Of a stretch of 64,000 nt of DNA, positions 275 through 63,815 are shown in pieces. This stretch comes from Asterochloris sp. CNOR1 (taxonomy: Eukaryota > Chlorophyta > Trebouxiophyceae > Trebouxiales > Trebouxiaceae), in the NCBI GenBank assembly GCA_963969365.1, contig OZ017761.1, forward strand, positions 992,001-1,056,000, given 5' to 3'. The notes under the pieces were generated by a model. The model saw only the letters and a program-made list of their open reading frames with translations, did no database searches and was not told where the DNA came from. Position 1 is the first letter of the stretch, and every line of letters begins with the position of its first letter. Position numbers and translations under genes: made by a program.

Positions 275-3200
275 TCCCCGCGCTTCCCGTCGCCGGCATC
301 CCCCCAGAGGCAGCAGATGGTGCGCTCCCTGCTCGTCATCTACAAGTCCCAAGAGATGACCAACCCTTGCTGCAAGGTGCGCCTAGACCCTACGCTGGAC
401 CCTAGCCTGCCTTGGCCTTGGTTGCATGCATTGCCTGATATGCAATTTGGGCCTGCCGCCAAGTGTGTGCAGTGCCCTTGTTTGCTTTACGTATTTTGAC
501 CTGGTTGTTCCGCACCAACAAGAGTCTGCCCAAAGGTGTGCCTCTGGTGAAAGCCACCAACTTGAGGGCTGCCTGTGCACTATCAGCAGTAGCAGTACCC
601 TTTCCCGCTGGCTTGCCCCAGAGTTGGTAGGCACACGGCAGGATATGGCCCAGTCTTGGGTTGTACACAGGCTGGCATCATGTGCCAGCTGTACGGAGCA
701 CCGCATCTGCCTGGCACTGGTGCTTCTCAGGCACAATACAATGTCCCCTGCTGCATTGCTTGTTGCACTCCCATTCACGACTTGTCACCCCGTGGAAAAT
801 GAATGCCACTCAGTTTGCAGCAGTCCCCTCAAAGGCCAGGTCGCTCATGCAGCCTGCATCTGCATGCAGGTGTGGCTGGATGGAGCCAGGGCCGCAACCC
901 AGATGGACAGGCCTGACCGGCCGCTCCGGTGTCTGCTGGTGAGAGCCTGTCAGCCTGCAAGCGGGTCAGTCTCTGTGGTCAGGGGCAGGTACTCGTGCCC
1001 CAGGCAAGCTGCGGGAGGTCTGCCCCGGCCCTGCACTCTGAGGCAGAGAGGGTCTGGCAGCAGCTTCCAGCCTGCAGCTGCTGACCGTTGCTTCACCGCC
1101 CGTCCCAAGTGACTGCACATCAGCAGCATGATTACAACAGTGCTGCTGTCAGAGTTTGTGCCTGGACATTTCTGCCTTGACCGTCCCCCGAGGTGGCTGC
1201 TCTGCAGAGTCTGCAGCAGACACTTCCAGCAAAGCTAAGCCTAGGGGCGTCCACTCATGCTGTCAATGTCTTTTGTCGACAGACACCCATGAACTGCTCT
1301 GTAGTCTGTGTGCAGCACGCATGCAACCTCAGCAGGGCCCTGCTTTTCTGGGAACATTTTTTGGGGCTGTTCCTCCACTTCCAGGCTCCTGCACCTCTGC
1401 TTCTGGAGCAGCCCTTTGCTGCCCTTCCGGCATTGCACCACACTTATGCAGGGTCCAACAACACTAACCTTTCAGAACGCCCCTGTGTAGGCTTCAGCCT
1501 GCATTGCTGGCCTCCTGCGGCGGCATGCCATAGACCCCTGACCCCTCAGCGGCATTCCCTTGCTGCCCTGCAAGCGCTGGACAGGTGTCATGCAGGCTCC
1601 AGCGGCGCCTTCCTGTCGAGGGATTAGGGTTTATGGTTCTAGTGAGGGACCCCTCTGTGGGCCTTCCCCCGCACTTCCAGGTTCCTGGCAGCCGCCAGTC
1701 ATGCTGGGCGCTGACTGTTCGGCAGCAACCCTAGCTGCCCTGCAGGCACTGCACAGGACACATGCCGCCCCCAGCGGCGCCTTCCTGTCCGGGGACCCCT
1801 CTGTGGGCTTCTCCCTGCACTTTCAGGCCCCCGGCGGGGATAAGGCGGCGGCTGAGAAGCTGCAGCGCTTCATGACAATCTGCAATGGTGGCTCTCAGGC
1901 GATTGCCTATGGCACCAATGCCTACCAGCACATCATGAGCAGAGGTGAGGGCTTGCCAGGACCTGCATGCTGGGAAATGTGCTGTTTCAGGTGCAATCGC
2001 CTGGCGGGTGTAGAGCACATGTGTCGTCGAGGGGGTCTTACGAAAGTGCAGGAGTCCTGCCCTTCTGGAGAGGTCATGGGCTGGGCAGATTCCTGCCCCA
2101 AGCCTGTCATGTTGTGGTTTGCGGGCATCAAAGTTGAGTCGCCAGCCCCAGCGCTGGCTTCAGGCTGTGATTCATCTCTGCAACTTTGGCTGGGCCTGCT
2201 GCATTATTTTCTTCTTCTGCAGCAACCTGTCTGTGCTGCACTGCCTGATGCACGTATTGATGCGTCATGGGGTCTATACTGCTGGCTTGCATGCTGACTG
2301 TTGAGACTGTATCTGCTGGGGGTGGGGATGCGCTCACCCAGCACACGACAATGCTTGTGCTGCCAGCTCTCCTGCTGCCCCCCAAGACCTGCCTGCTGTA
2401 GGGTTGGGGTCCTCTCTCGGCCAGCCCAGTCTGCAACTGCTGCACTGGGGTTGCACTGCTGCTTCGTCTGCTGACATCCAGGAGTCTGCCTGCTGCAGCT
2501 GGTACTGTCTGGGCCCAGCCGGCACAGGCCCCTGCCTGCCCTCAAGCTGCAGTGCTGCTGTACTCTAGCTGACAGTGAAGTGTGTGCCTGCAGGAGGCGG
2601 TGCTGCAGCGCGGCCAGCACAGGCGACACAGCCTCCGCCAATGACGACCGTCACCCTGGGCACCGGCCCCTTGGGCACAGGGGCAGCCTCAATGCAGGCC
2701 CAGCCGCACCCGAGCAGTGCAGGTGCGTACTCACTTGCCAGTGTGACAGCTTGTGAGATATATGCCTGTAACAGCATGCTGCACCTGACCTGTCCTCTAC
2801 TTGCTTCAACCTGCCAAAGCGCATTGAGTTGAGGACCACAGTGACATGTTTGCTCTGCATGAAACTTCAACAACATTCTTTTCCAGGAAGAACTTGCATT
2901 GCAAGGGCCTACTAGCCACCCTGGGTGTCCTGATGGCAGTGCAGCATTCACCAGATCACCACTGCAGAATTTCACAGCAGCGTATCACTCAATGCCTGCT
3001 TGGCTGCTGCAGTGTCAGCGGATGAGGAGTATGCTCGGAGGCTGCAGGCAGAGTTTGATGCAGGTAGGCAGATCAGCTGGACCCCAAAGAGCTTGTTTTA
3101 AGACACTAGCTTTGCGTCAACACCTTTTTGAGTGGCACGTGCCTGTCGGCAGCGTCTGTTGCGATGCACCACAGGCCCGCTTGCATCTGCTGCCAGGCAG

Positions 3201-4765
3201 CATACCCTGCCCGCCTTCTGTACCATGTTGCGATGCCACTCACCACTTTGCACCTGTATGCTTGGTAGTGGCTACCCATACCAATCAATCATCGCGTGGA
3301 CTGCTGAGTTCTACCATTGGGTGGCTCCACCCTGCACATCAACTCCACAAGTTTCCACCCCACCCCTAGGCATGAGTGCAGCGCCATGGCCTGCAGATGT
3401 GGCTGACCTCCTGATCGACGCGATGCCTGATGCAGAGCTGCCCGCAGCCGCAGGGTCCGCCTTTGGGGCTCCCGCCTCTGCAGGCTCGCAGCCCAGCACG
3501 CCGCAGAGCGCAAGGCAGGAGCCTGAGATTCGATACCCCACAATGTCATCGTCGGCGCCCCCTGGCCAGGTGAACGTTTGAGCCCGTCGAGCATGTGAAA
3601 CATGTCCAGTACAGCTCGGCCTGCTGCGAAGCCTTGGTCTTAGGAGTCCAGCCACGTAGCCACTTCCAGGCAACGCTGTCACATACAAAGTCCTTTGGTA
3701 TTAGAATACTGCCTGTGCCCCTGCGACCTGCTTGTTTTGCTCGCCTAGGACGCAGCTGGTGCTCACCTGCATTGTTCTGCCCTGCCTATGCATCCCAGGC
3801 AGCCCGGTGAGCATGCTGACTGCACCTTACATCGCAGTGTGAGCTGTCTGGCACCATCTGACCGCTGCTGCCCTGCAAGCCATGTGACCACTGCTGCCTC
3901 TGCTTCAGCCTCCTCCCATTCTTGAGTTGTTCATTTATGCCCTGCTGCTTTCAGACTCAAGGAATCTATCGTTTGACTGACGCCGAATGTGCCAGCCCCA
4001 AAGCACCGTGGCAGTCACTTCAATCACCATCTGACACTTCATCCATGGCTTGCTGATGTGCTGCAGGGGAGTGTCAACCTGCCCGCCTGTGGCAGTGCGG
4101 CCGGCATCAGCCACAGAGCAGGGGCTGGCAGTAAAGCTCCCTATTATTGGTCAGCACGGCTGACCTGTGCTGCCTGCACCCTGCAGGGAAGCCCTGACCT
4201 GGCCAGCGCGGCCGCGCCACCTGCCACCGCTACAGAGCAGGGGGCCTCGCAGCCAGCAGCATCTGCCCCCTGGCCCCAGCAGCCCACCCCGGCTGGCCAC
4301 TCCCACCTCAGCTTTGACATGCCGCCAGCGGCTGCCCCGCCCAGCGGGGCGGTGCCTGGCGGCGCTCTTGAGTCCGACGATGAACAGTGCGTGATCTGCC
4401 TGGACCGCAAGGCTGAGGCAGGCTTCCTGCACGGCTCCAGGTCAGGAGGATGTCTGGGAATGTTCTTGTAGGGGTTTGTGTTGGGATTTGGTAGCCTTTG
4501 CGGAGCGTGGAGCTGCTGGCTGGCCTGATGGCCTGAAGCAGTGCTGGACTGAAAAGTATGCCACGCACTCCTCTGTGGCGCCTGCTGCATGAGTCCTGAC
4601 CGCTATGAGTGTGCACCACATCTTACTCAACTGTTGTCCCCCGCCTGCTGCAGCGTCCACAAGTGCTGCTGCCGGGAGTGTGCCACCATGATTGGCCAGC
4701 AGCCTAACAAACAGTGTCCTGTATGCCGCCAGCCTATCCAGCATGTCATCATGAATTTTTTCTAG
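275..4765 (+). CDS. E3 ubiquitin ligase with MDM2-type C-terminal RING (5' end not resolved)
   Basis: Likely E3 ubiquitin ligase. Inferred exons: 275-376, 1746-1944, 2594-2722, 3013-3063, 3370-3569, 4187-4440, 4654-4765; phases join cleanly from 1746 onward. The last two exons encode a RING beginning CVICLDRKAEAGFLHGS and continuing VHKCCCRECA then CPVCRQPIQHVIMNFF-stop. The pattern (Cys pair, His-Gly loop, second His, Cys cluster, CPVCRQPI, protein ending just after it with aromatic residues) matches the MDM2/MDMX C2H2C4 RING rather than classical C3HC4. Upstream are a charged helix DEEYARRLQAEFDAG (exon 3013) and a low-complexity Pro/Ala/Gln linker (4187-4370). The exon at 1746-1944 (contains GFSLHFQAPGGDKAAAEK) is clearly coding but I do not recognise its fold. 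The 275-376 exon is weaker and the start codon may lie left of the window. Target protein unknown; no p53-binding domain was seen. Confidence 0.75.
1350..1850 (+). repeat. RING-ligase exon echoes
   Basis: The exon at 1746 (GCTGCCCTGCAGGCACTGCA, then CCCCAGCGGCGCCTTCCTGT, GACCCCTCTGTGGGCTTC) is preceded by a long copy at about 1561-1700 (GCTGCCCTGCAAGCGCTGGA, CTCCAGCGGCGCCTTCCTGT, GACCCCTCTGTGGGCCTT) and weaker ones near 1418-1515 and 1355-1400. Confidence 0.8.
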
Positions 4766-4912
4766 GAACAATGTTGAGAAGGCTGCTCCTAGTTCAACAG
4801 CAGCCTGTGTTCTAGTCCAGCAACACCCTGGGCTACTCAATTGCTACTCAGTGTCATTGAACCTGTATGCCAGGGCATCATGTGTACAAGGATTTTTCCT
4901 GCAATGAGATGA

Positions 4913-5835: not shown

Positions 5836-8170
5836 TCAGAACCAGGGGACATGAGCCCCTGCCAGCGTTGCTGCGTGGGCCTCGCGATCCTCCAGGACAC
5901 CCAGTAGCTGCTCGTGGTGGGGCGCCAAGGCTGACTGAATGAGGTCAACCTCCCTCCAGTGCTGCCCGATGGCGTCTCCTCTGGCTGGGGTGTCAGGGTG
6001 GCTTTCACGGATGCTCTCGGCCCACTCATCTGCACAGACAGCAGGCTGTGTCAGCCAGTGCAGCTCCATCAGGGAGCTCCATCGAGGAGCCTGCCTGAGC
6101 CTGACACGATTGCTTAGATGCATGCTCCATGAGAGCAGCATCTGCACAGGGCGGCAACAAACCATGGCAGCTGAGAAAGCAACTGCTCACCAGCATACAG
6201 CAGCTTGGCCAAGTGGCGCCGCAGGTCTGGCCTCAGCAGCCATGCTTTTAGCTGCAGCGTAGACAGAAGGCCTGCAGGTAGCGACCTCATACCTTGCCAG
6301 CCTCTCGCATAGGCAAGAACTACACAGCAGGAGCAGCTCAGGGACTTGCTAGGCAGCGTCGCCCAGCCTGCCTGGGTGGGCATCACTTTGCTCAGCACTC
6401 ATGTCTGAAGCAGGGCGGCAGGACCCACCTGCCTGGGCGGGCAGCAACTTGCTGAGAGGTGGCGGGGGAGGGGTGGCCCGCCTCCTTGCCTGGGACAGCC
6501 AGACTGTGAGGCAGAAGCGCTCTGTGCTGGCTGGCAGCACCCTGCAACGCAGGCAGGTGCAGAACATTTCAGTCTGGTCTGGGTTTGCTGGTGGTGTGGC
6601 AGAGACAATGGATTGCGTCGCCAAGGGGCACGTGTGAGCAGCAAGGGACAAGAAGGTGCCCTGCAGGGAGGGCAGTCCTTGACTGTGCAGCACGCTGCAT
6701 GGAGGGGGCGTGACATGAGCGCAGGTGAGAGAGAAAGCCCACTGGCAGCAGTCAGCAGAGTCATGGCAGCAAGCAGTCGGCAAGGGCCAGCCTGTGCAGG
6801 ACAAATTACAAGGGCTTGCCTGTGCAGCATCCGGCATGACGAGAAGAGCACCATTCGGTCCAGCAGGGGCTCAATGACGACCGGTGGCCCAGGCAGAGGG
6901 TACAGCTTCAGCTGCCCCCCATGTGCTGGACGCCAATCCGGATTCAGATACAGGATGGCCGTGACTCGGCGAGCGTCCACCTGCAGGCACCAGGACTGGA
7001 GCCATTGGGCGGGGTGGAAGGGGAGCGAGGTGGTGGTGAAACCGTCTGCCTCAAGACAGGTGAAATTGTCAGTGCATGCCAAAAGGACCCAAGCCTATGG
7101 TGTCTCAGCTGATCATCAGCAGGCAAGGCAGTGAGACAGTCACACAGAAGGACGCTATCTGCATACCTGCTCATCGGAGTCATAGTGGAGGGGGAAGCAG
7201 CCTTGCTGCCCTGCATGGCACATCCTGGGTGAGGCGGGAGCGCTGTGCCCTTTCACTGCAACAAGTCAGTTGGGCAGCCCCTGCTAAGGCGACACCCGCT
7301 AAGCAGCACCACTGGCAGCTGCCCATTGCACTGCACAAGAGGACCCACCAGCAGCAGGTGCTTTCAGTTCTGAGCAGTGGGCAGCGAAACCCCATCACAA
7401 ACCCTCAGGGCCGTTTGATCTGTATGGTGCTGCAGCTCGATCGGCTGGCTGTTCAGAGTCAGCAACGAGCAACATGGATTATCAAGCAACAGCATCCACC
7501 ACCATGATCATCAAAGCCCAACGTGAAGTGGAGCAAGGCTGACCTGCGTTGCGCTGCAGCTTGGTTGCCTGGCTGTCCAATGTCAGCTGGGGCAGCATCA
7601 GGCTCAACATTGTGCGCAGAGTGCAGTCTGAATTGAGCTTATGGCACAGGGGAGCTCTGCGCTGCACTGCCTGCAACATAATACAGGCAATGCTGTCGGA
7701 CGACTTGAGGCTGACTGGTGCTCAAGTGCAGCTCACAACACGGGTGTGCCTTGCAGTCCATCATTGCAGCAGGTATCTGGTATTTGATGGGGGCAGACTC
7801 CTGTATAAGATACAGAAGGGCTCTTTGCTGCAGCAGCGGCTGCAGTCCAGTGTTGCAGCAGGCATGAAGAGGCTGACAGCAGCACGCATGGAAGGCATAG
7901 ACGCTTGGAAAGCTGGTCGCATGCACTTGCCTGGTCAAATAACTCTGCCTCATGGATGTGCGACTTCTCCAGAAGCTGTCGTCCCTGCGACTTGACCAGG
8001 TGAGTGCTGTTCAGGTGCATGCTGTCCTGGAGGCCTCTGACCTCATCCAGGATGCAGAGAGCAGCATTGCTGCCCAGCACCTGATCAGCAACTGCCCAGC
8101 CTTGATGCGACAGGGCAGCTGCTAAACCAGGCGTGATGGCAGACTGGATGCGTTGCAATGGCAGATGCAT
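5836..8170 (-). CDS. EGLN/PHD-like 2-oxoglutarate-Fe(II) prolyl hydroxylase
   Basis: Seven inferred exons on the minus strand: 8170-7931, 7670-7544, 7210-7167, 6980-6820, 6541-6490, 6251-6191, 6029-5836; all phases join. The double-stranded beta-helix is complete: iron ligands His and Asp in GCFPLHYDSDEQ, the strand ARRVTAILYLNPDW, GGQLKLYPLP, the distal iron His in RMLHRVLP, and the 2-oxoglutarate Arg in TERFCLTVWL. The N-terminal part (HQGWAVADQVLG, then IHEAELFDQ) matches the lead-in helices of the P4H/EGLN group. It would hydroxylate a proline of a partner protein using O2 and 2-oxoglutarate; the substrate cannot be inferred. A helical C-terminal extension of about 85 residues (DEWAESIRESH onward) follows the domain. 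Start chosen at the ATG at 8170; an in-frame ATG at 8323 would overlap the divergent gene. Three of its six introns have GC donors. Confidence 0.88.
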
Positions 8171-8321: not shown

Positions 8322-11300
8322 ATGAACGACTCTGCAGAGTTGCTGGCCGACCTCCAGCAGTCTCTGCAAGCTTTCGAAGAGCACCTTGCTCAGGTTAAGA
8401 ACTTGCTGAATCAGGACCCATATGATGCAGAAGCTCAGCAGGTGAACATCTTAGTGCACCTGCACAATGCAATGCGGATCAGAGTTCATGGGACATGAAA
8501 AACAGGCGCAGGTGTTTTGGTAAGACCAGGCTGCTCACGCAGCTCAGTGCTGTGCCATACAGGTGCAGCAGGAGCTGAGAGATGCTATTCACGAGACCAA
8601 CAGCAGCATACACCTCCTGCATGCACAGGATGCAGCCACTGACTTCGGTGGTAGCGTACATCACAATTGTGCTGTGCACAGCTGGTCCGCACAGGAGCAG
8701 CAGCCAACTGCTGGTGTCAGAAGGCCTGCTGAGATGGCTAGTGCTCGGCCTCATGCGCCTGCACACCAGCAGCACCCCAGTGCTGGCATCAAGAGGCCTG
8801 CAGAGGCTGCTGGCCCTGGCAGGCACAGCAAGCGACAGCGCCCCACAATGCACCCCCGCAACCTCTACGCTCAACAGGAGCCGGACTTTGCTGCGCTGCC
8901 CACAGCTTACCCTGCGCTGGGGCCCCATGTCACGATTGGCGCGAGTGGCAGAGGAACTGTCAACTTCTCAGATCCAAGTGGGTTGTAGGGCTGCGCCATG
9001 CATACTGAGTAGTCTGCATGCCACCAATCATGCTGTTTGGATCCGAGCGCATCCTGTCAGCTTGCTGCAGTCAGGGCTAGCTGCTTGTAACGCGGCCCTC
9101 AGTGCAGTGTCAAATATGCTTTTCCTGACTCAACCAGTGTCTGCCTCGCAGATGCAGGCCAACAGGTCATGGTGCATGTGGCACTGCATTTGTCGCCACA
9201 AATGCTTGATGCTGGCCCACTCCCGACTAGCCTGCTGCATGTCTGCTGCCACCTGCCACAGACTGTTCAAGCCACCACAACACCTTACAGATGCTCACTG
9301 CAGAAGCCAGCTTAGAGGTCACTCGTGCTCTGCTGCACGCCGACTTTGGTGTGACCTGGGAGCTGCAGCAGGGGCAGCTGGTCCCCCCAGTGGCCAACCG
9401 AGCCAATTACATCCACTGGCTGGAGGATCTGCTACGCCTTTCATCGCCAGATGAGCCTGCACAAGCTTGCGGTGAGTCACGGCCCAACAGCAGCCTGCAG
9501 CGGTGATGCCTTCTGTCACTTCTGGGGTCCAGTCGCCTTGCAAAAGTCAGCAGGGTTAGCTGGCACCTGTGGATGATCAAGCAAATGAGGATTCCCCAAG
9601 GTTGAAAGGTGCCGACGATGGCAGGTTGCACTCAGGTCCAAGGCAATTTCTTTAACAGCAGCAGAAACCAATGTAAAGGCATCAAATTGACTGTTCCAAG
9701 AGCTGCAGGGGGCATGCTACATGCTGGATTGGCAGAAGCGGAGCTCACTGGCCTCCTTTCACATGTTGTCACAGGTGCACCATGGACTGCCCTGGCTGCA
9801 GCTCTCATGCAGACGGTAGAGTCCCACCCGTGTGCAGGCCTGGACATTGGGTGCGGCGCAAACTGTATCTACCCCCTGTTGGGCGCAGCCATCAACAGCT
9901 GGCGCTTTGTGGCGGTTGACGTCACACAGCTCGCGCTGGAGCAGGCTGCCCACAATGTGGCCCTGAACCCTCACCTGGCCCACCTGATCACCGTGCGTCC
10001 CAGCAACGTTTGCAACGCTGCCCTGCCTTCCCATGCAGTGGCCAGCAGCCAGGCTGGGCAGCAGCAGCAGCCCACAGCTGCACCCGCTGCAGGCCAAAGA
10101 GCAGCAGGCAGTTGCAACGCTGCTCAGGCCTCGGGCTGCGGCCATGCTGGACAGCAGCAAGACCCTGCTGGTGCACTTGTGTCCAACAACAAAGTCGCTG
10201 GAGGCACTGGCATGGCCACTTTCGCTGGCCCCCAAGGCTCTGGGGTTCTGTCAGTTGCGGGTGCAGGGAAGGGCCAGCTGTCGACAGAGAGCAGGGTCAA
10301 GCGGCAGTCGTCCGGTGCAGGCGACACTGGGCAGCAGACTGCCCATGAGAGGAGTGCTGGCTGCAGCAGGCAGTCTGCACCCTCCCCCGGCCTCGCTTGG
10401 GATGCAGGCAGCACTGATGGCATCCTGTTGCCAGCTGTGCTGCCTGGGGAGACCTTCAGCTTCAGCATGTGCAACCCCCCTTTCTTCAGCAGCATGGCTG
10501 AGGCAGGGCTCAATCCCAGCACTGCTCATGGAGGTGGGCACAGGGCATTCGGTGCAACGGTGCAACATGTCATTGCTGGAGCACTGCTGGTCCTCTGGGA
10601 GCTTGCTGCGAGCGAGGCCACTTGGGCTTGGGGTCGATGCTGCGTGCTTCACCCTGTGGTGCTGCCATGCCTTTCAGGCTACACTTCACTCCCACAGCTT
10701 GCTGCTGCCTGGCCCTGCAGGCCCTGCAGGCATCCAAGCCAGTGTCCCCCACTCCCCCCCCCCCGGCCGGCCCCCGCCTGGGGTCTCCTCTGCCCCACTT
10801 CGGCACCTGTAGGCAAAGCAGGCATCGCAGTCATCGGCTGCTTGCACTTTGCCACTGGCGTTGTCAGTGGCTGCCTGTCTGACAAAGGGAGTCCCTACAG
10901 CGACATCTTTTACTCACCAACGGATGCCTGCGCTTGCAGGCACAGCTGCTGAGATGGTGTACCCCGGCGGGGAGCTGGCCTTTGTGAGCCGCATGGCATC
11001 TGAGAGCCGCACCCTGGGCAACAGGATACACTGGTACACCACCATGGTTGGGAAGAAGGCCACCTTGAAGCAGCTGCGCAAGCAGCTGCACGCCGGGCGA
11101 GTCACAGCTTTGCGCACGACAGAATTTGTGCAGGTGAGACTGGGTTGCAGGCGATGGCAGATCTGCATTCAAGGTCGCTTGCAGTGCTGCCGCACAGCTG
11201 CATGCCTGCCGCCTTTGAGCAGGTCAATGCAAACTGGGAAGGCCAGTTGTGCAAACTTAAAGTGCCAGTTGGTCCTCGAGTGTGATGTCAGGGTGAGGGA

Positions 11301-11757: not shown

Positions 11758-14700
11758 CTAGTCTGAGGAGTGTGCACCAACCACGTTGCCAATTGGTTCC
11801 ATGTCGAGCTGAAAGCGCTCTGCTGCGGGCTTCATGTCAGCAAAGAACCCCCAGCGCTCGGCAGGGTCTGTCTGGCCCCACTCAAAACCTCGCAGCAACA
11901 CTGCCAGCACAGCCTGCAGGGCGCAGGGAGTCAAGCAGTGGTATGACACAGGATGCTAAACATAACAAAGCAAAATCAACAAGCAGCCTGGCATACAGCA
12001 AGATGTCTGGCAACAGACTGCTTGAGTTCACCAGCAGGAACGCTGCAGAGCGATGTGCTCCTGCACTCAGCTCTGTACTGTCTCACATACCTTAATCTCC
12101 GTTGTGGCCAGCCGCATCCCAATGCAAACTCTGGCGCCATCCCCCCATGGGGTGTACCCGAGAGGATCCTTGATTGGCTTGCCATTGCTGTCCAACCATC
12201 TGCAGGGCAGCCATCTTGAGTCCGGTCTGACATGAAGCAAAGGTGTAGTTCGACTCGCACAACCTGAACGTACGAGAAATAATGGCAGAGCACACCTATC
12301 TGGGCTGAAGTCCTCAACAGTATCCTTGAAGTCAGGAATGTCGCTGATTGCTCTGCCCATCATCAGCTGAATCCTCCAGCCCTACACTCAGAAGTGGGCA
12401 CTTGCATTGCCCATCACTTGAGCAGCCACAATGCCTTGGGGCCTACATGAGCCTCTGACTGATGCAAGCCTGGCCAGCACAACATCCCAGAAGATCTGCC
12501 ATGCTAGCTCAGCTGTGGTGCAGTTGCGAGCAGATTAGATGAGCACAGTGCAGGCTGCTGCCTGCCAGTGCAGTCCTGCTACCACTGTTGGCAGCCAGGC
12601 TGACATCAAGCGACCTCCACAATGGATGCCACCACAGAAGATGCCTTGAAGTCAGTAAAAGGGTTCTGACTGGCATGTCAGGTACCTTGGGGATCCTCTT
12701 GCCATCCACCTCAATGTCCTGGAGAGCTCGCCTCCACACCGCAGGGACGATGGGGTGCATCCTCAGCTGCTCACGCAGGACAGCGTCTGCAAACACCATC
12801 TCGTCCAGGACCCTGCCTGCAGCACAGCAGCATCAGTGCCTCACAGTGCTGGTACTTGACTTCATTATTGTGCATTGCACTGGCGCAGGAGAGGCATGCC
12901 GCTCCAGGCCCTGCAGCAGCAGCAGGGCATCACAGTCCTGTTACCCAGTCAGATAATGATGTGCTTCTGCAGCACAGCATCTTGTCCAGTACCCTGCCTG
13001 CAGCGCAGCAGCAGGGCACCCCTTGCAGCAGTGCAGGTGCAGCTTGCATGCTGTGATGTGCTCAAGTGGTGCTGAGTCTCCTCTTTGTGTCCTGAACCCT
13101 GCCTTCCACGCGGCAGCAGAGCATCACTGTCTGGCTGCTTGAATAGGCTCTTGAACTCGCTCTGTAGTGGCAGAGTGCAAGTCTATCTCATCTAGCATCT
13201 GCATCTGCAGCGCAACGGCAGGGGACCCCATCAAACAGTGCTGCTGCAATTAGCAACTTGGGTTATGTGCAGGCAGCACTGTGCTGCAGCATCCCGTCCA
13301 GAATCCCTGCCTTTAGCAGCATCAGCAGATCAGGACCACGCAGCGACATTGGAGCAGGCTTCAGGCACAGGAGCAGCTAGGGCAAGGCCGGACTCCAGGA
13401 GACCTGTGCCAGTATATAAAACTAGACAAGCCGCTGCAGCCTTTATGAAAGTTGGATGTGAGTTGGTCGTGATGGAGGACAGCCGAACAGGACACCTCCT
13501 GCATGGCTTGCTGAAAGGGCGCCTCATACTTTGCCGCAGACCCTGTCGAGTCACAGCTGTGATGTCCCGAGCACCATCACTTGAGACCCTTGAGGCTCCC
13601 CACCTGTGATCTCTGGCCCATGCTTGGACTGCAGCTGTGCTTGCTCTTCCCGCAGCCGCTTCAGCACCTCCGGCTGTTTAGGCAACAAAGTCAGCATGCG
13701 AGCTAAGGCCACTCCAGTTGTCTCATGCCCTGCACCATGAAGTGCAATGGTTGTGTGTGGGCTCTGGTATCAGTTGACCGGCAGCCAGCAGCACACACAG
13801 CACACCCAGTCAGACCAGGCTGGTTGTAGCTGAAGCCCTGGCAGGGTTGCTGCAGAAGGCAAACATGGCCTGGGGTCTTAGGCACATGACGTGCGGGCGC
13901 AAAGTCCCCCCTAACAAAAGGCATAACAGACTGACGCAAGGCTTGATCATCCCAGCGTCTGAGGTACCCAGGTGCAGGACAGCTGTAACAGTGTTTTGCA
14001 TGCACCATGCTGGATGGCAGTGGTGCAACAAGACGGTGGCGCAGAGACAGGTCGCATGTGTCAGTGGTCGAGCGCTGCAAGGTGCACAGCATGCTCAGGG
14101 CGGACTAGACAGGGCTGCCACGACACTCACCTGCAAACAGCTGTGTCAAGCACTGGTCCGTCAGCTCCTCCAAAGAAGCCTTCTTTCCCTGCACAGCAGT
14201 GGATGGGTGCTGCAGGCATCCGGCAGACCCTCCAAGCGGACTGGGAACTGTGCGAACACAGTGAAAGGAGGACCATTGACCCTCACAGATTGTGTTTGCC
14301 CTGCTTTCACCAGACGCTTAACTCAGGTGCCATCTGCTCAGCTTGAATGAAACGATGCGCCCAGCTGTATCGCCTGGCGCCTAAGGTTCCAGGCCTGACA
14401 TGCAATCAGCTGCCCACCTGTTCGTCCCTGCTTTCTGCACAGAGGCGCATGACATTGGACACTTCCTTGCTGCCCCCAGCCTGCACTGCCGGCAGCTGTG
14501 CCGGCTGGGAGGCCTGCTCCCGCACAAAGCCCTGAATGATGCGCCTAATGTCCCTCCGGGCCTGCACCAGTGGAGGCGCTGCCTCCAGGAAGACGTGCCA
14601 TGGTGGCTTTGTCGAGCAATGGCGGGCAGGCGGCAGACACAGGCTTGCATGTGCTCTGTGACATAGGAAGGACTGTTGCCTAGCACAGCGAGCGACTACC

Positions 14701-17275
14701 AGCAGACAGTCACAGGACAAAGTGTTAAGCAGATGCTGCAGGGGGGGGGTCTCTGACAGCAGCGTGCCGCACCGTGCCACGCAGGGGCCATATAAAGACA
14801 TTGCTGCACGATGCTCACCTTCAAAGCTTTGCCAAAGCGGGCAGTGGGCAGGGGGTTCGGAAGGCCAAAGAAGCCCATCACATACTTGTCGTACAGGCTC
14901 CTCAGCTCCAGCGTCGTCTCGGGCTGCAGCACAGGACACTCTGCACCTTAACAACTGCACAGCCGCATCAGTGCACAATTACCTTGACTGCTGAGGATGT
15001 GTTTGCATGAGGACACCAGACAGCTGTCTTCACAAATCTACACAAACACCAGAGATGAGGTACACTGAGTGCCTTGGAACACGACCTTTTTGAATAATTT
15101 TAGCTGCGAAAGTCAACTTCTACAGACTGGCAGTGCATGGCCAGGCACAGCCCCGTGCTCTGCAGCCCTTACCTGTCGATCTTGAAACGAATGACACGTA
15201 CGCGCAGACAGCTGCAATTGTGGACATCTTCTTGTGGTAGTCACGTCAAGGATCCCAGAGTGAAGCGCAACCCTGCCCACCGTGTAGCTGAACCCCAGCA
15301 GGCGCCCTGAGTATGCCCAAGCCCGTACTGTGAAGCACAAACCTGTCCGCCTCTAAGCTGACCATGGCAGGCAGCCTGACATGGCTTAAGCTGGGGCTGT
15401 GCAGCACAAACCTGCGCATCACAAAGCTGAACCACAGCAGGCCTCTTACCATTGCTCCATGTTGGACTGTGCAGCCTATACCTACCCACCTTGAAGGCGA
15501 ACCCGAGCAGGGTGGTGGCGGCCACGTCAAAGGCGAGGCGCCGAGACTCTTCCCATCCTGCCATGCGCCCTGTAGCTCGCCACTGCCTCGCGTAACGTTC
15601 CACCACAGCATTGATAGCTGGCACATAGGAGTGCACTGCCTCCTTGGTGAAGGCCTGCACCTCATGCAGCAGGTTGTCACAAGCCCCTGCACATCATGCA
15701 GGTTGACTAGGCTGTCCATATTGATGAGTGTGAAGCTCTCAGAACCCCGGACTCACATACATAGCTGTGGCTGCTGCTGCTCACTGGGTTTTAGCATGCT
15801 GGGAGCAGACAGGTAGCATGGCAGTGACAGTGACAGCTGCCCAGGGATTGGTGGTGAGCAGGCTGGAGATTGTCACGGATACATTCCTTAGGGTGTGGGT
15901 GTTGCTGCCGATGAGGTCCAGGCGTGCTGGAAGAAGATGGCAACACAACAGAGGCAGCTGGCTGGTGAGGGGTGCTGAGCATGCAGGGCACCATCGGCAG
16001 CCAGGGCATGCTGGCTCATGGCACCAACATGGCTCAGAGCATGCAGGTATTTCCCTACAACAGCAAACAAGCAAGGAATGCAAGCAAGACTTCATACAGC
16101 CAGCATCAGGAAGGCAGCAGCTGCCCACCTGGGACATGATACGTCTCTGGCTGGTGTGCTTGGGGCCGTGCTGGGTGATGAGAGACCCAGGGCCCAGCAA
16201 TTTCAGGATGTTGATGGGCCATGTACTCTCCACCTGCAGCACAGTGGTTGAGGCAGTGCAGGGCATCTTGGGGCAAGGTGTCAGCTGTGCTTTTCTCCTG
16301 AGGGACACTCAGGGGAGGCCCGAGCTGTGCCTTCCAGCTTGGGTGCAGGTGGAATGATCTGGATGCGGTCTGCATCACGAAGCAGAACAATCTCACGACC
16401 AGCAATCGGGTGCAGCAGGGTGTCAGCTGGCAGCATTCTAGCCTCTGCGGGCAGCATCATATGCAGCATTTGTGTCAGCTGTTGATTGCTGCGAGCACCT
16501 CAATTGTTCAGGCTCACTGACCCCTGCAGCACTCAACCTGCATTTTGCCTGCCAGAGAGGCAAATACACTTACTCTCTGTCAGCGCTTAGAGAAGCAGAA
16601 GTGCTTCAACAGACATGACTTACGCACCAGCTTGTGCTCGCCCTGCAGGAGACGCCTGATGTGCTGCTCCCCGTAGATAAAAACTGTGGTCTCGCCTGTA
16701 CCATGAATCTCAAGAGAGTCAAGAGACTGCGCGGGGGGGGGCAGGCAGCTGCAAAGCCCAGAAACCAGAGGCATGAGCACTGCAGGAGATGCCAGTCAGA
16801 GAGAGTATGCAGCCGCTTGCAACATGCTGGACAATACAACACCAATGCAAGAGCATCGCACAGGGACTCAGCGCAAAACACCTTCCAGCCAGCTGCGACT
16901 GCAGGACAGCATCTCACCAATGATGTTGGACTTGAAGACGGAGCCATGCTGCTTGTACCTGCACGCCACCAAGGAGAGCCTGCTGCTGCTGCTGTGCTTC
17001 AGCACAGATCTGAGCATTTGGGGTGCGCAGCAGATGACATGCACAGGCTGCTCCTGCTGATAGAGTACCTGGTTTGATAAAACTCCTGAGGGGTCTTAAT
17101 GTAGGCAATCGTCTCCCCTGCAGGGTTGAATTCTGTTAGTCTGCACAATGCTCAACAACTCTAAAGACAATCTTCACATCAGCAGTGGCACCTATCAGGG
17201 GAAGACCTAGTGAGCCTTCAGGAAGAGGCAGCTCTGTGATGCTGGCAGCATTAGTGTGGTGCTGATGCACAGATC
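11758..17275 (-). CDS. Cytochrome P450 monooxygenase (CYP26/CYP120-like)
   Basis: A long minus-strand gene of about 14 exons. Readable pieces in order: proline-rich start PEGSLGLPLIG (about 17230-17192), GETIAYIKTPQEFYQTR (17117-17069), YKQHGSVFKSNIIG (16958-16918), ETTVFIYGEQHIRRLLQGE (16695-16624), WPINILKLLGPGSL (16241-16136), EAVHSYVPAINAVVERYARQ (15654-15490), two helical exons (14923-14819, 14578-14418), I-helix AGHETTG (about 14190-14130 joined to 13735-13612), K-helix ExxR in LREQLRMHPIVPAV (12817-12692), GRAISDIPDF (about 12370-12306), heme loop WGDGARVCIGMRLA (12206-12095), and the C-terminal exon 11922-11758. All hallmark P450 motifs are present; the heme-loop Phe is replaced by Trp. 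The N-terminal exon with any membrane anchor, upstream of 17275, is not resolved, and one exon near 16300-16600 may be missing. Substrate unknown; similarity is to the retinoid/CYP120-type clan. Confidence 0.85.
12817..13330 (-). repeat. P450 acceptor echoes: decayed tandem copies of the K-helix exon start
   Basis: On the minus strand the true exon begins CTGCAG|GCAGGGTCCTGGACGAGATG-like at about 12830-12800. Upstream in the same intron are recognisable copies around 12965-13010 (GCAGGGTACTGGACAAGATG), 13085-13120 (GCAGGGTTCAGGACA), 13185-13215 (ATGCTAGATGAGATAGA) and 13290-13330 (GCAGGGATTCTGGACGGGAT). Several keep the CTGCAG acceptor. Confidence 0.7.
15250..15500 (-). repeat. P450 donor echoes: tandem copies of an exon end
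   Basis: The exon end TTCGCCTTCAAG|GTGGGTAGG (minus strand, 15490) is followed, within its intron, by three similar blocks at spacing of roughly 65-75 bases (near 15425, 15350 and 15280). Each repeats a GGTTCAGCT-like segment, a GCAGG or GGGCAGG donor-like site, and TTGTGCTTCAC-like sequence. Confidence 0.7.
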
Positions 17276-48400: not shown

Positions 48401-51400
48401 CTGCTGCAGCTGCACAGCATGCCTGTTGGGCATGGCTGGGGGGATGCCTGCAGGGCACAGCGCAGGCAAGTGACTCACATGCTAGGTGACTGAGCCATGA
48501 CTATCCTGTGGGCTGTGAGAGCACATACTGAGCTGCCAACTGTTGCTTTTTCTACCCTTATTCAAGGCCTTGGGGCCAGCTCTGTGCATCATATAGACAA
48601 GACACTGGGGGTAACGTGCTTTGAGCTGGATACACGTTTTGGCCTGCGAGCCGGGTTGGCAGGTGACCACACCTTGTGCTTCAGGCCCCACTCACCAGCA
48701 GGAAAATCTAAATTCGCTGGGGTGTTGAAGTTACTGGGAGAGGGGGTCGTCAAAGCTAAGCTACCTGCATCCTGCATGCATCAGGGCACAAGGCTGAGTC
48801 AAGCGCTGGCTACATGGGCGCAGCCCCAAAACATTCCTGCAGCTCGCAGCATAGCAGCATCTCTTCAACCCTCTAGCCTTCAGAAAGACCATTGTTGCAG
48901 CCGCTGCACACTCAGGAGTGCTGCTGGAGCACAGTTGGCATCAGGCACGTCTGTCCAGGGGATGATGGGGAGGGCCAGACTGCCTGTCATGCTGGCTGCT
49001 GCAGCACGCGGGCAAGCATGCAGTGGTTGCAGGGGGAAGACGTCCATTCCCAATCTCTGGCACCCCAGCATAGCAATCAGTCAGCAGAAGCTGCAACTCC
49101 CAGGACGGCTGCCCCAGTTGGTTGGCAGGCAACCACACCTGCCCTCTGGATGACGGGAGGGCCATGCTGGCTGACATGCCGGCCGGCGCTGCTGCCTGCT
49201 GCATGGGGGTCGTCGTATCCAGCTGGCTGGAAGGCACACCCTGCAGCCACCAGAGTCACCAACACTCCTGACGCAAGCACCCTGACAGGTGACTGACCTC
49301 AGTAACTTAGTGATACCCAACTGCTGCATACGGCTGAGAGCAGCCTGATGGGACCTGAGTGTGGCTGCCTGACTCTGCCTGTCAGCAGCCTGACAGGGAG
49401 TGAACATGGCTGGTGCTGAACAGCAACCACATCCTGCTGCAAGAACTCTGTTAGCTCGGGCCTCCTGCGACATGCAGGATGCGCCTCCTGCATGGCAGTC
49501 ACCTGCTGGTGGAGGGAGGGCGGCACATTCATGTTGTGCTGGGAGAGGGGCGTCCCCTGCAGAGCTTCTGCCTTTGCCGGAGCTGCCAATGCCCGTATGC
49601 TGGCCTGCTCATTGCTGATCAGCAGGGCAGCTTCCTCCTCAGCCCCTGCAGACAGGCATGCACCAGATGAGTCCTGCGCTGAGTCATATGAGCAGCCGAC
49701 CTGCTCGTAGCGCATCAGTGAATGCTAACCTGACCACTGCTGCTCAGCAGAACACCACCATCTTCAGCTCTTGCAAATGGGCACGCAGCATGTGCGCCCT
49801 GCAATGTACCACATTGGCGTCTGCTGGCCAGCTCGCTGACCAAGTGTCCTGCTGGGCTGCTGCAGACAGGTGTGCAGCAGATGAGCCCACAATCCACCAC
49901 ATTGGCAGGTGCTGGCCTGCTTGCCACTGATCAGCAGGAGACAGGCCTCTGATGGGCTCAGCCGCCAGAGTCAAAACCCAGCTGCCGCTTACCGTACGCT
50001 CAAATGTACTGTGCCACCTGAGCAGGCATGCAGGCACTCACCCAGAGAACACAGCTCTTCATATGCACACCACATCAGTGGATCCAGCGTCAGGGCTGCT
50101 CTCTGGTAGGACACAGCTGCCCTGTGCCGGTTGGTCAGCCCGCAGATGCGACCCAGCAGGTAATAGCCTGCAGCACCCTTGGGCACCTGCACTGGCACCA
50201 CATCAAAGGGAAGTGAGCTGTTAATGCTTTTGCAGGACAGTGTTTCTGGTGTGCATGGTCAGCTCAGGTGGTGGCCTGCAGACTGCGGAAGGCACCTGCA
50301 TGGGCAACAACTCAAAGGGAACTGAGCTCTTGATGTGTTACGTGATAGCTCATACTGCCTTGAATGTCGGCTCAGGGAGTGGCCTGCTGATAGAACTGCT
50401 TCATCTGACTGCCAGTGCAGCAGAGGTGGCCTGCAGACCCCTTGGGCGCCTGCGCAAGCAGTTGAAAAGTTGCTTGCAAGCCCTGAAATGTCACTTGGCT
50501 CCTGTGTTGGCAGGGCCATGGCAAGTGATATGTCTGCAGGCCCAGCCGGCAGGTCACAAGCAGCACAACCCACTCAAGAACATCAAGAGCCAAACAGGTA
50601 GTGATCCAAGGCTTCCACCTGCCATTTTGGCTGCCCTAGCAAGCGCCTATTGGCCCTAGTCTCTGACATGGCGCAGCACCACGCTGCAATTCCCTAAGCA
50701 CCCTTGCATCATGGCGCAGGACAGCATGTGGCTTCAGTCACAGCGCTAAATGATGCTGAATTGGGCAGGCATACAAAGCGGTGCTGCCATGGCTCCTCAC
50801 AGCGATAGGCTGCATGGCTCACCTGAGCTCCGTCATTTGTGGGGTTGAGTGCCTGCTCAGCCTCCGACAGCTTGCCCAGCAGCATGCAGCAGTGTGCCAG
50901 CAGGTACCTGCTGTCTGGGTGGCTGCTGCCTGCACATGCACAAGAGCAGCTTGCCCACCAGCATGCAGCAGTGCGCAAGCAGGTACGTGCTGTCTGGGTG
51001 CCAGCTGCCAGCACATACTCAGAGCTTCTACTTCAGAAGCCGCAGCCTTACTTGGAAAGAGCACAGACAGCAGGGCCTGGAAGCGGGCCTGCATGTGCTT
51101 GACATTGGAAAGCAAGCTTGCAGGTGCTTGATAGACATACAGAATCGCTGTCATGGCAGATCTCACCTCTGAGCAGGTGAAAGGCTCGCCCAGGCTGGTC
51201 TGAGCGCAGGTAACACGTCGCCAGCAATCTGACATTCGCCTGCACACAGAATACAAGTTCTCAAGAAAATGCGAACTCTGCTAACACGTTGACAAGGATT
51301 GAAAGTATTAGCAAAGGTGGCATGCCAAGTGAGAGGGGGGCCCCTCAGCACAGCAGGCTGGCGCTTGCTCATGCTGCCAGGGATTGAGTGGCGCTTGATC

Positions 51401-51972
51401 ATGCTGCCAGGGACTGAGTGGCAGCCTGCCCTCAGCTGATGTCAACTGGGTGCCCCAGTCAGCTACAGGCTGCTGCAAGATGTGGTGGTCATGGCCCTCC
51501 AGCCGTCTGGCACTAGTCAGAGAAGTGCTTCCTGCAGACCCCTAACCTACTCAGAAATGCGGGCGGTCCACATGTGAGCACTGCCTGCTGCTGAACGTGT
51601 TGCAACGGCTTCACCCTTGCAAACAAGGCTCCCCCGACCTCTGACGGGTACTCTGCAACCAGCCTCCCTGTCATGAAGCGAGCTTTCCCCTGATATCACA
51701 TCCCAAGCTCCCACGTACACAGGCAGCATGAGATGACTGCCCATCTTGCAATCCTCAAGCTGTGCAAACAAGCAGGTGTTCCATGTCTGAGCACTACATG
51801 CTGCTGTCAGCCGTGCACATGCAAGCCCGCTCCTCACCTGTGAGGGATACTCTGCAACAAGCCTTTCTGCCATGAACCTGGCATTCTCCATCAGGTACAG
51901 CCCCAGGCTCTCGTGCACACAGGCAATCATGTGCTGCTCCATCGCTGCCTCTGGCAGCTTCAAGGGGTCCAT
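42459..51972 (-). CDS. CDC27: CDC27/APC3 subunit of the anaphase-promoting complex
   Basis: A 9.5 kb minus-strand gene. N-terminal exon 51972-51838 (MIACVHESLGLYLMENARFM, AERLVAEYPSQ) and the next (ANVRLLATCYLRSDQPGRAF, about 51240-51165) match the CDC27 N-terminal TPRs, followed by DSRYLLAHCCMLLGKLSEAE (about 50936-50825) and GAAGYYLLGRICGLTNRHRA (about 50190-50040). A long low-complexity linker (Gln/Pro/Ala-rich exons at 49680-48190; ARFKFTDDTGKVRKVSSRLF at about 47600) leads to the C-terminal TPR array: EAIEAFSRLPTNQYSTGWVL (46100-45942), WAVMGNCLSLQK (45195-45047), LAGHEYFANEDFDQSMSCYR (44450-44275), YGVGQIYFRQEKYEMAEYQF (43890-43815), LGLLQVNPQSSVLRCYAGMA (43560-43450), DVDPKNPLAKFEKASVLMSL (43055-42945), VWFQIGKIYKRLERPQEAMR (42653-42459). 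It is the APC/C scaffold TPR subunit that binds CDC20/CDH1. The first of two ATGs (51972, 51942) is quoted; the second fits the family start better. Linker exons are incompletely resolved. Confidence 0.88.
44845..45620 (-). repeat. CDC27 TPR-exon echoes on both flanks
   Basis: The exon 45195-45047 has decayed copies of its start region (+ strand pattern CACAGTGCTGTACACCTCCA then ATGCCCTGCATGCAGG) near 45280-45320, 45360-45410, 45500-45530 and 45590-45615, and copies of its end (CTTTTGCAGGGAGAGACAGT) near 44955-44990 and 44848-44880. Spacing is about 90-130 bases. Confidence 0.65.
46900..47165 (-). repeat. Triplicated block in the CDC27 linker region
   Basis: Three similar blocks (+ strand GATGCTGCCTCGCGTGCTCC at 46919, GATGCTGCCCCGCGTGCTGC at 46999, GACGCTGCCCCACCTGCTGC at 47128). 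On the minus strand one reads KRSTRGSIS and another RSTRGSISADGG, so at least one copy may be exon and the others echoes. Confidence 0.55.
50830..51016 (-). repeat. Near-intact tandem copy of a CDC27 exon start
   Basis: The exon start encoding SSHPDSRYLLAHCCMLLGKL (minus, about 50936-50870) is duplicated immediately upstream (51016-50937), where the same frame reads SWHPDSTYLLAHCCMLVGKL. The copy keeps an open frame and a flanking acceptor, so it could be an alternative exon. Confidence 0.75.
51575..51800 (-). repeat. Decayed copy of CDC27 exon 1 in intron 1
   Basis: About 210 bases in intron 1 align with exon 1 and its donor: GAGCCTGGGGCTGTACCTGA versus GAGCTTGGGATGTGATATCA, and GGCTTGTTGCAGAGTATCCC versus GGCTGGTTGCAGAGTACCCG. 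Offset about 240 bases. Frame is lost. Confidence 0.7.
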
Positions 51973-53311
51973 GAGGGTCACTGTCCGCAGGCGCTGGCCC
52001 AGAGCCTCAAGGGTTGCTTCTGTGTTGCCAGCCTTGCCTGCAGGCAGGGCACGGCAGCCCCTGCTATGCCAGAGAGAGCAGCAGGCAATGGCAAACAACC
52101 TCAAGTATTGGTCTTGGGTTGTCAGCCTTGCCTGCAGGCAGAGACGACGGCTGGGGTCACGCTTGGAACCTTGTCAAGCATTGGCCTAAAACAACACGCT
52201 TGCTTGGAGTTCCTCAGCCTGCCCACACAAAGCTGGCATGACCCTCTGCAGGCGCCTTGCCAGAGTCATCTCAGCCTTGCGGGCTGAGCAGTGCAGGCAC
52301 CGCATTGCGCAACACCTGTCAAGGGCAGCAAGTGTCTGCGCAGAGCCTTCAGGCTGCACAGTTTTGCCTATCAGAGGCAGATGCTGTGACAAGGTGCAGT
52401 CAAGCTCTCACATGTACATTGTTCCTCCACAAGAAGATGAATGCATAAGGTTGCATCAGCACTGGGTGTTGAGCAATAAACATGCCTGCGGGGCCAGGCT
52501 GCTGTGTCTGTTCTACTGCTGGAGGGCCAATGTTGGGGGCCTTCGTTCAGGCCAACTGCCCACGCCTAAGGCTGTTCTGCAATTAATGGCAATTTATGCG
52601 GGACACTGCAGCGTAGACGGCAGCAATTAGGAAATCTGTTAGTAGGGCCTCACCCAAGTAGGCCGCTGCATGTGAGATGGCATCAGCTGAGAAGAAGAGG
52701 CAACTGCCTCTTGTGTGTTCTGTACATTCTGAGGGGAAACTGTCAGCCCAATTGTACAGGACTGTGCAAAAAATAACCAAAGCTGAATGGCTGGGCAGGC
52801 CGGTGCAGGGAGTCCTCAGACAGGCTAAAATTGATGCACAAACTGATCAGTGCTCGATGGCTCTGATCAAGGGGCACTCGTTATTGCTCTCACAGCTGTC
52901 AAGGCTCCTGCCTCTCGAGTGACATAAGCAGGCGCTCGAGTAGCGGTGGCGTGAATCCCCACTGTTGAGAGGTGCAAGTCAGCAGAAGAAGCCACTGAGC
53001 CAGGACACAGACACGCACTCTAGATAGCAAGAGAGCACAGGGACTGACTGCTCAGGTGGGGCGATTGGGCTCTGCAGCATACTGCTGTATTCATCTGCAC
53101 TCTCATGGCGGTGATGGGCACCCTCCAGTAGCACCGGTGACATGCTGATGAACTGCTTGACAGCACGCTGCTGACACCTGGGGTATGGAGCAGATGCGCA
53201 GGCAGATAGTGGACAGCAGCTTCTGCTGCAAATCATTACAGAGCAGGCTCTGGGGATGCACGACATACTGGGGTGGCCTCGCATAAGCATGCTGCCCTTG
53301 GCTGAATAGCG
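51973..53311. other. Divergent intergenic region, CDC27 / QCR8
   Basis: Includes two copies of GCCAGCCTTGCCTGCAGGCA-like sequence at about 52028 and 52122, close upstream of CDC27 exon 1. A + frame at 52677-52922 and a - frame at 52583-52780 are open but featureless. Promoters and 5' UTR exons of both genes probably lie here. Confidence 0.3.
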
Positions 53312-53660
53312 AACGGTGCCAGTGCGCCTCAGGGATGTCAAGCCGCCAGCGTGTCTACTTGGGTCCAGCAGTGTTGCCATCTGCACAGCAGGCTGGGCAA
53401 GGTGCCAGTGCGCCTTGGGGCCATCGTGTCAAACTGCTGCACTGCCTCAACCAGCATTCTGCAGGATGGGCAAGGTGTCGCTGCGCCTGAGGGATGTGGT
53501 GTCCAAGATCGCTCACAAAGTACACCAAGAAAACTTCTTGCTGGGTTAGTGTGCTGAAACAGTGTGCTGCGGCAAAGGTTTTGAGGAAAACCCCACTGGG
53601 CACTCACATGCAGAAACCTTTTGCTGCCCTGCAGGATGGGCAAGGTGCCAGTGCGCCTGC
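53312..53660 (+). repeat. Four-fold series of QCR8 exon 1 starts
   Basis: The true exon starts CTGCAG|GATGGGCAAGGTGCC (53629). Upstream copies: 53464-53512 (GATGGGCAAGGTGTCGCTGC, then GCCTGAGGGATGTGGT), 53391-53432 (CTGGGCAAGGTGCCAGTGCG then CCTTGGGGCC), 53312-53342 (GAACGGTGCCAGTGCGCCTC then AGGGATGTC). The 53464 copy keeps both the CTGCAG acceptor and the ATG. Confidence 0.85.
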
Positions 53661-54795: not shown

Positions 54796-54871
54796 CCAGT
54801 CTCTCACAGATTTCTTGACAAAGCTGAAAGTGCTTGTCACGAGACTTGAGCGCTGCTGTATATATCTGGCC

Positions 54872-55010: not shown

Positions 55011-63815
<8,805 letters not shown>

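Follow-up and report, generated by a model that had tools for sequence, protein, structure and literature searches.

We analysed a window of 64 kb from the green alga Asterochloris sp. CNOR1 (contig OZ017761.1, positions 992,001 to 1,056,000; all coordinates below are those of the window), whose introns, according to an earlier note, are filled with imperfect copies of the edges of the neighbouring exons. We call these copies exon echoes. The window is eukaryotic, its genes are intron-dense and lie on both strands, and its G+C content is 55.6-58.7% per 4-kb stretch; no Rfam family at the gathering threshold and no tRNA was found in it. Seven genes were modelled (Table 1). Their exon chains were built by hand from conserved protein sequence and the splice consensus, without transcripts, after some of the repeats had already been noticed. 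All results below concern this one window, these seven hand-built genes and one species, and derive from sequence only.

The models comprise 67 exons (median 122 nt) and 60 introns (median 366.5 nt), i.e., 120 intron-facing exon edges. Donors are GT in 58 introns and GC in two (APC3 intron 10, 46440-46450, and CutC intron 2, 36620-36630, both on the minus strand), and acceptors read TGCAG in 51 of the 60. Reading frames are continuous save for two breaks, between SR140 exons 4 and 5 and between APC3 exons 6 and 7; in the PfkB gene, a 27-nt microexon (19777-19803, plus strand) restores the frame. Pfam backs all seven genes, SR140 and APC3 having been searched in parts.

Table 1. Modelled genes of the window and echoes of their exon edges, with the segment paired with each echo given as its source.
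Feature	Position	Strand	Source	Score (identity)	Remarks
SR140/U2SURP-like gene	55011-63034	+			18 modelled exons, continues beyond; Pfam Surp 1.3e-15, RRM_1 5.9e-14, CID 1.3e-8 on a 510-aa part
Echo of SR140 exon 8 start, acceptor side	57865-57929	+	58068-58132	21 (66.2%)	
Echo of SR140 exon 8 tail, donor side	58359-58478	+	58174-58295	51 (74.8%)	Offset 185
Echo of SR140 exon 18 start with acceptor	62759-62828	+	62859-62931	33 (76.7%)	
APC3/CDC27-like gene	42945-51972	-			16 modelled exons, continues beyond; Pfam ANAPC3 8.1e-18 (N-terminal), 1.1e-10 (C-terminal); PDB CDC27 1e-21
Echo of APC3 exon 1 end and donor	51637-51725	-	51836-51925	34 (71.1%)	
Echo of APC3 exon 3 start	50947-51021	-	50868-50942	57 (88%)	One copy, 79-bp tandem unit
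Echoes of APC3 exon 4, acceptor side	50265-50460	-	50157-50282	38, 20	Two copies
Echoes of APC3 exon 5, acceptor side	49722-49938	-	49597-49677	33, 24, 19	
Echo of APC3 exon 6 end and donor	48897-49005	-	49084-49192	25 (68.5%)	
Echo of APC3 exon 8, acceptor side	47747-47807	-	47562-47622	31 (75.4%)	
Echoes of APC3 exon 9, acceptor side	46992-47158	-	46894-46956	29, 25	Two copies
Echoes of APC3 exon 12 start	45275-45624	-	45154-45216	27, 26, 21, 14	Up to four copies
Echo of APC3 exon 12 end, donor side	44958-44994	-	45051-45087	23 (81.1%)	
Weak echo of APC3 exon 15 end	43248-43266	-	43455-43473	17	Over 19 nt; CAG-rich, may be chance
RING-finger gene	275-4765	+			7 modelled exons; Pfam zf-C3HC4_3 6.8e-10
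Array upstream of RING exon 2, acceptor-region copies	1350-1795	+		18-46	Pair scores; only 11 nt of exon reached
Echo into RING exon 3	2355-2507	+	2451-2605	22 (63.7%)	12 nt of exon
Echo of RING exon 6 start	4061-4124	+	4181-4243	20 (68.8%)	
PfkB-family kinase gene	17980-20811	+			8 modelled exons; Pfam PfkB 5e-8 on full model, N-terminal half alone without match
Echo of PfkB exon 3 end and donor	19223-19268	+	19108-19153	26 (78.3%)	
Echo of PfkB exon 4 start	19464-19484	+	19547-19567	19 (95.2%)	Over 21 nt
Echo of PfkB exon 6 acceptor region	19963-20063	+	20051-20151	51 (75.2%)	Only 7 nt of exon
Echo of PfkB exon 6 end, donor side	20363-20406	+	20278-20321	24 (77.3%)	
Cytochrome P450 gene	12686-17117	-			10 modelled exons, 3' part outside the model; Pfam p450 1.6e-39
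Array of P450 exon 5 end and donor	15260-15441	-	15330-15511	57, 30	About 70-bp units
Array of P450 exon 10 start with acceptor	12914-13332	-	12783-12832	33 (86.3%), 16	Scores of exon-touching pairs; intron-intron pairs too
CutC-family gene	34857-36979	-			6 modelled exons; Pfam CutC 1.8e-63
Array of CutC exon 5 acceptor region	35563-35742	-	35493-35668	32, 26	About 70-bp units; 17 nt of exon
METTL16-like gene	9807-11133	+			2 modelled exons, no exon-intron echo; Pfam Methyltransf_10 2.4e-38
Three decayed copies of QCR8-like first coding exon start	53315-53514	+		16-36	Six pairs; exon ATG at 53636

Local direct repeats and exon echoes

Strong repeats in the window are direct and local. When the window was compared with itself, all 40 direct high-scoring segment pairs (HSPs) of score at least 22 were spaced by 50-400 bp, and the single inverted HSP of this strength had its partners more than 10 kb apart. 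At score 20 and above, 49 of 51 direct pairs lay within 500 bp. The same distance held 77 of the 221 direct HSPs of score at least 16 but only 5 of the 178 inverted ones, the others being scattered over all distances as expected by chance; ten more distant 600-bp distance bands contained 0-6 direct pairs of this score each. The 5, 50 and 95% quantiles of the spacing are 72, 138 and 319 bp, so that the range of 65-250 bases given in the earlier note was about right.

Within the seven genes, 56 repeat pairs were found, of which 33 link exon to intron, 21 intron to intron and two exon to exon; the partner is thus intronic in 33 of the 35 pairs with exon sequence. The two exon-exon pairs both lie in the long exon of the METTL16-like gene (10027-10395, plus strand, spacings of 93 and 262). 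Duplicate sequence covers 18.1% of the introns, 13.4% of the exons and 4.2% of the unmodelled half of the window, and a further 13 repeat loci, with 19 pairs, do not overlap any of the seven genes. Duplicates that hold exon and intron sequence of one and the same junction, the type known from the potato RdRp gene (see below), occur in the window: a copy contains at least 6 nt each of exon and intron in 24 of the 56 in-gene pairs, and in nine more the exon-side copy is exon-only. No duplication of a whole exon with both its junctions was seen among the 23 best echoes, the aligned exon part being shorter than the exon in each, although decay may have shortened it.

The comparison of adjacent with non-adjacent introns had been proposed as the test of the echoes. 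We aligned up to 40 terminal nucleotides of each exon, free of intron sequence, with the adjacent intron, using as a null 400 segments of the same length from non-adjacent introns. At p<0.01, 17 of 120 edges matched their adjacent intron (about one expected), compared with 2/106 for the intron on the other side of the exon (Fisher P=0.001) and 3/120 for the adjacent intron in reverse complement. The contrast weakens at p<0.05 (22/120, 11/106 and 7/120, respectively), with the other-side control somewhat above its nominal level. With all strong direct repeats local and the matches in excess at the adjacent intron, the echoes are real, and the claim that they exceed the chance similarity of CAG-rich sequence holds, the composition controls being near background at p<0.01.

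The echoes are unevenly distributed between genes. APC3 is the richest (9/30 edges at p<0.01), followed by PfkB (3/14), P450 (2/18) and SR140 (3/34), with none in RING (0/12), CutC (0/10) and METTL16 (0/2); when APC3 is left out, 8 of 90 edges remain. Repeat pairs of score at least 16 touch 23 of the 120 edges, which come from all modelled genes but METTL16, some with just 7-17 nt of exon. RING and CutC have echoes at this level, mostly reaching 11-17 nt into the exon. Fifteen of the echo edges are acceptors and eight are donors (P=0.21), on both strands, which agrees with the claim that both exon edges and both strands are affected; an edge has up to four copies, as at APC3 exons 5 and 12. 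The echo of the SR140 exon 8 tail is extended into the intron by a further HSP (58318-58357/58506-58544, offset 188), i.e., the two copies stay nearly in register across the junction, as several others do. As for the number of genes, previously put at eight or more, we found echoes in six of the seven modelled genes and at the first exon of a QCR8-like gene, and cannot vouch for eight.

This QCR8-like exon matches plant entries (Pfam Cyt_b-c1_8 3e-18; PDB QCR8 1.3e-13), in agreement with a green-lineage origin, most likely a chlorophyte alga. It was kept out of the seven-gene counts, and its array is one of the 13 loci outside the models. The nearest of its upstream copies retains ATGGGCAAGGTG, whose ATG is at 53466, as well as a frame that is open for 27 codons (visual count), and could act as an upstream start codon. 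Another pair, spaced by 94 bp and containing CTGCAGGCAAGGCTG, immediately precedes the modelled APC3 start codon (51987-52141, minus strand), in what may be a promoter, a 5' untranslated region or a further 5' exon.

Intron length, decay and age

Introns with echoes are longer. The 22 echo introns have a median length of 582 nt, compared with 284.5 nt for the other 38 (Mann-Whitney P=3e-6). Duplicate sequence is present in all ten introns of at least 600 nt and in one of the ten introns below 200 nt, and its coverage climbs from 3% to 29% between these two classes. Intron length and covered fraction are correlated (Spearman 0.62), and the link between internal repeats and length that goes with internal duplication of the Daphnia type (see below) is found here. 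Duplication appears to have lengthened these introns. The proposal of tandem duplication at existing junctions with growth of the introns is supported by this difference in length and by the offset between copy and source, which never approaches the length of the intron (0/23).

The differences between exons and their copies concentrate at third codon positions. Identity at positions 1, 2 and 3 is 0.76, 0.77 and 0.66, respectively (third versus first and second, P=2e-4), as expected if the exon is under selection and the copy is neutral. The splice dinucleotide is retained in 19 of 29 copies, compared with 312 of 593 control dinucleotides, i.e., the other AG, CT, GT and AC of the same exon-copy alignments (Fisher P=0.19). 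Its retention is indistinguishable from background, and we found no support for the statements that the copies often keep CTGCAG or GT and that their splice signals are specially kept or serve as decoys. The splice sites carried by the copies bear no sign of maintenance, and we infer that the copies are neutral.

Young copies are scarce. Among pairs of at least 40 nt, identity reaches 85% in 2 of 27 exon-intron pairs (7%) and in none of 10 intron-intron pairs, where a simulation at constant rate predicts 26% and 31%, respectively. A constant rate is a poor assumption because of this scarcity, and the earlier suggestion that the duplication is continuing finds no support. Yet a few short tandem repeats with units of 15-30 bp are 94-100% alike (51359-51422, 27714-27751 and 41956-41984): some small tandem duplication is recent although the larger units look old.

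Origin of the echoes

We think it probable that the echoes are decayed copies produced by short local tandem duplications across exon-intron junctions, that they date mostly from an older wave and that the duplications were not targeted to the junctions. Duplications of genomic DNA with spacings of mostly 70-320 bp would have run across junctions of which the original remained in use, such that the extra copy, with its exon-like part, became part of the intron and made it longer, decaying neutrally thereafter. The duplication units would be about as long as the exons and the ancestral introns, and many of them would straddle a junction; duplications altering the exon would be lost. Since its exon partner would hardly change, an exon-copy pair would remain recognisable for longer than an equally old intron-intron pair, by a factor of at most about two. 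In our judgement, an old wave, short ancestral introns and slow decay of the exons together make the most economical account, with most copies coming from that wave rather than from steady, ongoing duplication.

Two kinds of evidence bear on whether junctions have to be targeted. A test in which the repeat pairs were rotated within each of the seven genes gave no enrichment of exon-containing pairs (35 versus 31.4 expected, P=0.23) or of spanned junctions (14 versus 16.1), while pairs with some exon sequence in either copy were rarer than expected (2 versus 6.8, P=0.01 for exon in both), as they should be if duplications altering exons are purged. In an earlier three-gene version, spanned junctions were not in excess either (10 versus 10.3). 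The second kind comes from simulations, their duplication rates set manually or so as to match the number of pairs observed, in which the quantity compared was the share of exon-touching loci after merging. The observed value is 0.85 (23 loci touching an exon with an intronic copy, four intron-only and one exon-only). An untargeted old wave with ancestral introns of 150 nt and ages of 0.25-0.45 substitutions per site gave 35/19 exon-intron/intron-intron pairs, 24/6.6 exon-touching/intron-only loci and a mean intron of 375 nt, compared with 33/21, 23/4 and 392 nt in the window. Over eight untargeted settings of 32 runs each, 0.85 was reached in none of the runs of the constant-rate setting and in 0, 0, 0.03, 0.03, 0.16, 0.16 and 0.28 of the runs of the seven old-wave settings. 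With a 2- or 3-fold junction preference added to the old wave, it was reached in 0.09 and 0.28 of the runs. Junction targeting is therefore possible, but the pattern can arise without it.

Other simulations varied intron growth. The exon-intron share of pairs was 0.42-0.44 in three early settings (0.61 observed), and the locus fraction was 0.48-0.56 in six stationary settings and 0.58-0.82 in five settings with growth, where 0.85 was reached in 0.40 of the runs starting from introns of 120 nt, in 0.05 and 0 of those from 200 nt and in none from 250 nt. In a further five settings, whose figures may be slightly shifted by the counting of inserted spacer bases as intron, the fraction was 0.57 when stationary, 0.83, 0.77 and 0.69 with growth from 120, 150 and 200 nt (0.85 being reached in 0.35, 0.18 and 0.03 of the runs) and 0.80 with a four-fold junction preference. 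Eight other untargeted settings gave 0.49-0.87 and five targeted ones 0.73-0.84. The one of these eight that fits the locus fraction, growth from 120 nt over a short time, was rejected: it leaves the introns without echoes far too short (121 versus 284.5 nt). Taken by themselves, these simulations point to targeting, but the scarcity of young copies speaks against their constant rate.

Several observations weigh against an old, untargeted wave that lengthened introns. Longer introns offer more room for copies, and the link with length is therefore no proof of growth. Exon-copy identity exceeds copy-copy identity in six of eight multi-copy arrays (means of 0.78 and 0.67, P=0.03), but this comparison is biased because similarity to the exon served to find the copies, and the opposite holds in one array. 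In pairs spanning a junction, the exon and intron parts are alike in identity (0.57 versus 0.63, P=0.60; 4 of 23 alignments failed, the source being aligned to itself), a comparison to which we give little weight. The balance of 23 to four loci leans further towards exon edges than in most untargeted models; at constant rate and with realistic intron lengths these gave locus fractions of 0.50-0.65 and, in seven settings of 40 runs each, never reached 0.85. The settings that fit better presuppose that ancestral introns were short, for which there is no outgroup support, and their median exon-intron identity is 71-72% instead of the observed 75%. Finally, when three genes were rotated, pairs whose left copy alone held exon sequence were enriched (10 versus 4.2, P=0.012), although they form one class of nine in a version superseded by that of seven genes.

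The last of these observations, together with the balance of loci, which is 16 to 2 at score 25 and above, would also be expected if splice junctions were hotspots of tandem duplication, with borders copied two to four times more often than intron interiors, e.g., owing to transcription-linked breaks or to the acceptor TGCAG motif. Simulated preferences of this strength gave mean locus fractions of 0.66-0.84 and mean introns of 323-499 nt. The seven-gene rotation speaks against such hotspots, untargeted old waves reach the observed fraction too, the argument rests on only four intron-only loci and repeats occur at 13 loci in DNA without gene models. We regard hotspots as possible but doubtful. 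The wider proposition, that junctions are preferred two- to four-fold and that exon borders, copied again and again, account for most of the lengthening of introns and thereby supply spare splice sites and exon fragments throughout the genome, we consider unlikely.

It is very unlikely that the echoes are maintained by selection to serve in splicing, as decoys or alternative sites, or to serve as proto-exons. In some copies, such as the ATG-containing one of QCR8, an AG or GT is intact and the sequence resembles that of an exon, but splice dinucleotides are retained at the background rate, and the copies are no closer to each other than to the exon, save in one or two of the eight arrays. We give even less credence to the echoes being scars of introns born by tandem duplication of AGGT-containing exon segments (the Rogers model). 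Such births do leave direct repeats of exon borders in introns, but the offset of the copy should then equal the intron length, whereas it comes within 10% of it in 0/23 cases (largest ratio 0.52), and many copies include intron-side sequence of a junction that already existed. An origin from dispersed elements (introners, transposons) or from chance is hardly credible and is refuted for the bulk of the echoes: the window is rich in CTG/CAG and 144 of the 221 direct HSPs of score at least 16 are spaced by more than 500 bp, but stronger pairs are nearly all local, no introner-type sharing between its genes was found and all three adjacency controls are near background, such that only weak single echoes (e.g., 43248-43266) may be due to chance.

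Relation to known duplications and further observations

Tandem duplication within genes has been described in several lineages. In the potato RdRp gene, a tandem duplication reaches from the 3' portion of an intron into the 5' portion of the exon that follows and takes in the splice signals (Ma, Lan and Niu 2016, PMC4974935), and a second, 83-bp duplication inside an intron is also mentioned there. This resembles the window in that the duplication crosses an intron-exon boundary, but it concerns one gene and a new spliced intron, whereas here 23 of 120 edges have decayed copies and existing introns seem to have been lengthened. New introns of Daphnia average 78 bp, their internal direct repeats being attributed to staggered double-strand breaks; repeats shared between a new intron and the adjacent exon are 4-12 bp long, internal repeats are present in 100 of 617 established introns, and passive growth by internal duplication has been proposed for the new ones (PMC4202315). 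The window differs in that the introns are established, the spacings are 70-320 bp and coding sequence is included. Most of its copies have decayed too far for their breakpoints, and hence any signature of staggered breaks, to be placed.

Other models concern the creation of introns. In one model, tandem duplication of an exonic AGGT generates new introns (Hellsten 2011; Gao and Lynch 2009; reviewed in PMC3443670), which shares with the window local tandem duplication within genes, but the duplications described here would post-date the introns. In Drosophila, novel intron positions arose from tandem duplication via proto-splice sites, and a survey cited in the same work lists 1901 segregating duplications with a median of 367 nt, 624 of them with some exonic sequence (PMC2891723). 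That work, too, deals with tandem duplication near coding borders, but its subject is the creation of introns and not the growth of existing ones. In core-Reinhardtinia green algae, genes are intron-dense with median introns of 198-343 bp; the selective advantage of long introns is said to be unknown and the driving mechanism, whichever it is, likely ancient, with none named in the portion of the text available to us, where the four uses of "tandem" refer to satellites, rDNA and Zepp elements and not to introns (PMC8226300).

We recognised no description of systematic exon-edge copies in established introns in the open-access literature, surveyed mostly at the level of titles and the openings of abstracts. 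We judge that the kind of event, tandem duplication within genes, is known, and that its action on existing junctions, apparently lengthening introns, is new. How introns lengthen in green algae is an open question for which duplication offers a candidate mechanism. Duplications that cross junctions would give a countable record of such growth, because the exon is conserved and provides a fixed point of comparison by which even old copies can be recognised.

Comparisons with other sequences were uninformative. The APC3 and SR140 proteins gave four pattern matches each against viral contigs and SR140 gave 53 against genome contigs, none of which was confirmed; searches with a light-harvesting motif (viral and genome contigs) and a tubulin motif (viral contigs) found no eukaryotic contig for comparison.

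Two further places outside the modelled genes bear repeats. A pair with a 72-bp spacing lies within an open frame at 8689-8805 (plus strand), possibly as an in-frame duplication of a coding exon. At 6400-7100 (minus strand), an exon of a 2OG-Fe(II) oxygenase-like gene (Pfam 2.7e-8) has repeat pairs close by, at 7416-7587.

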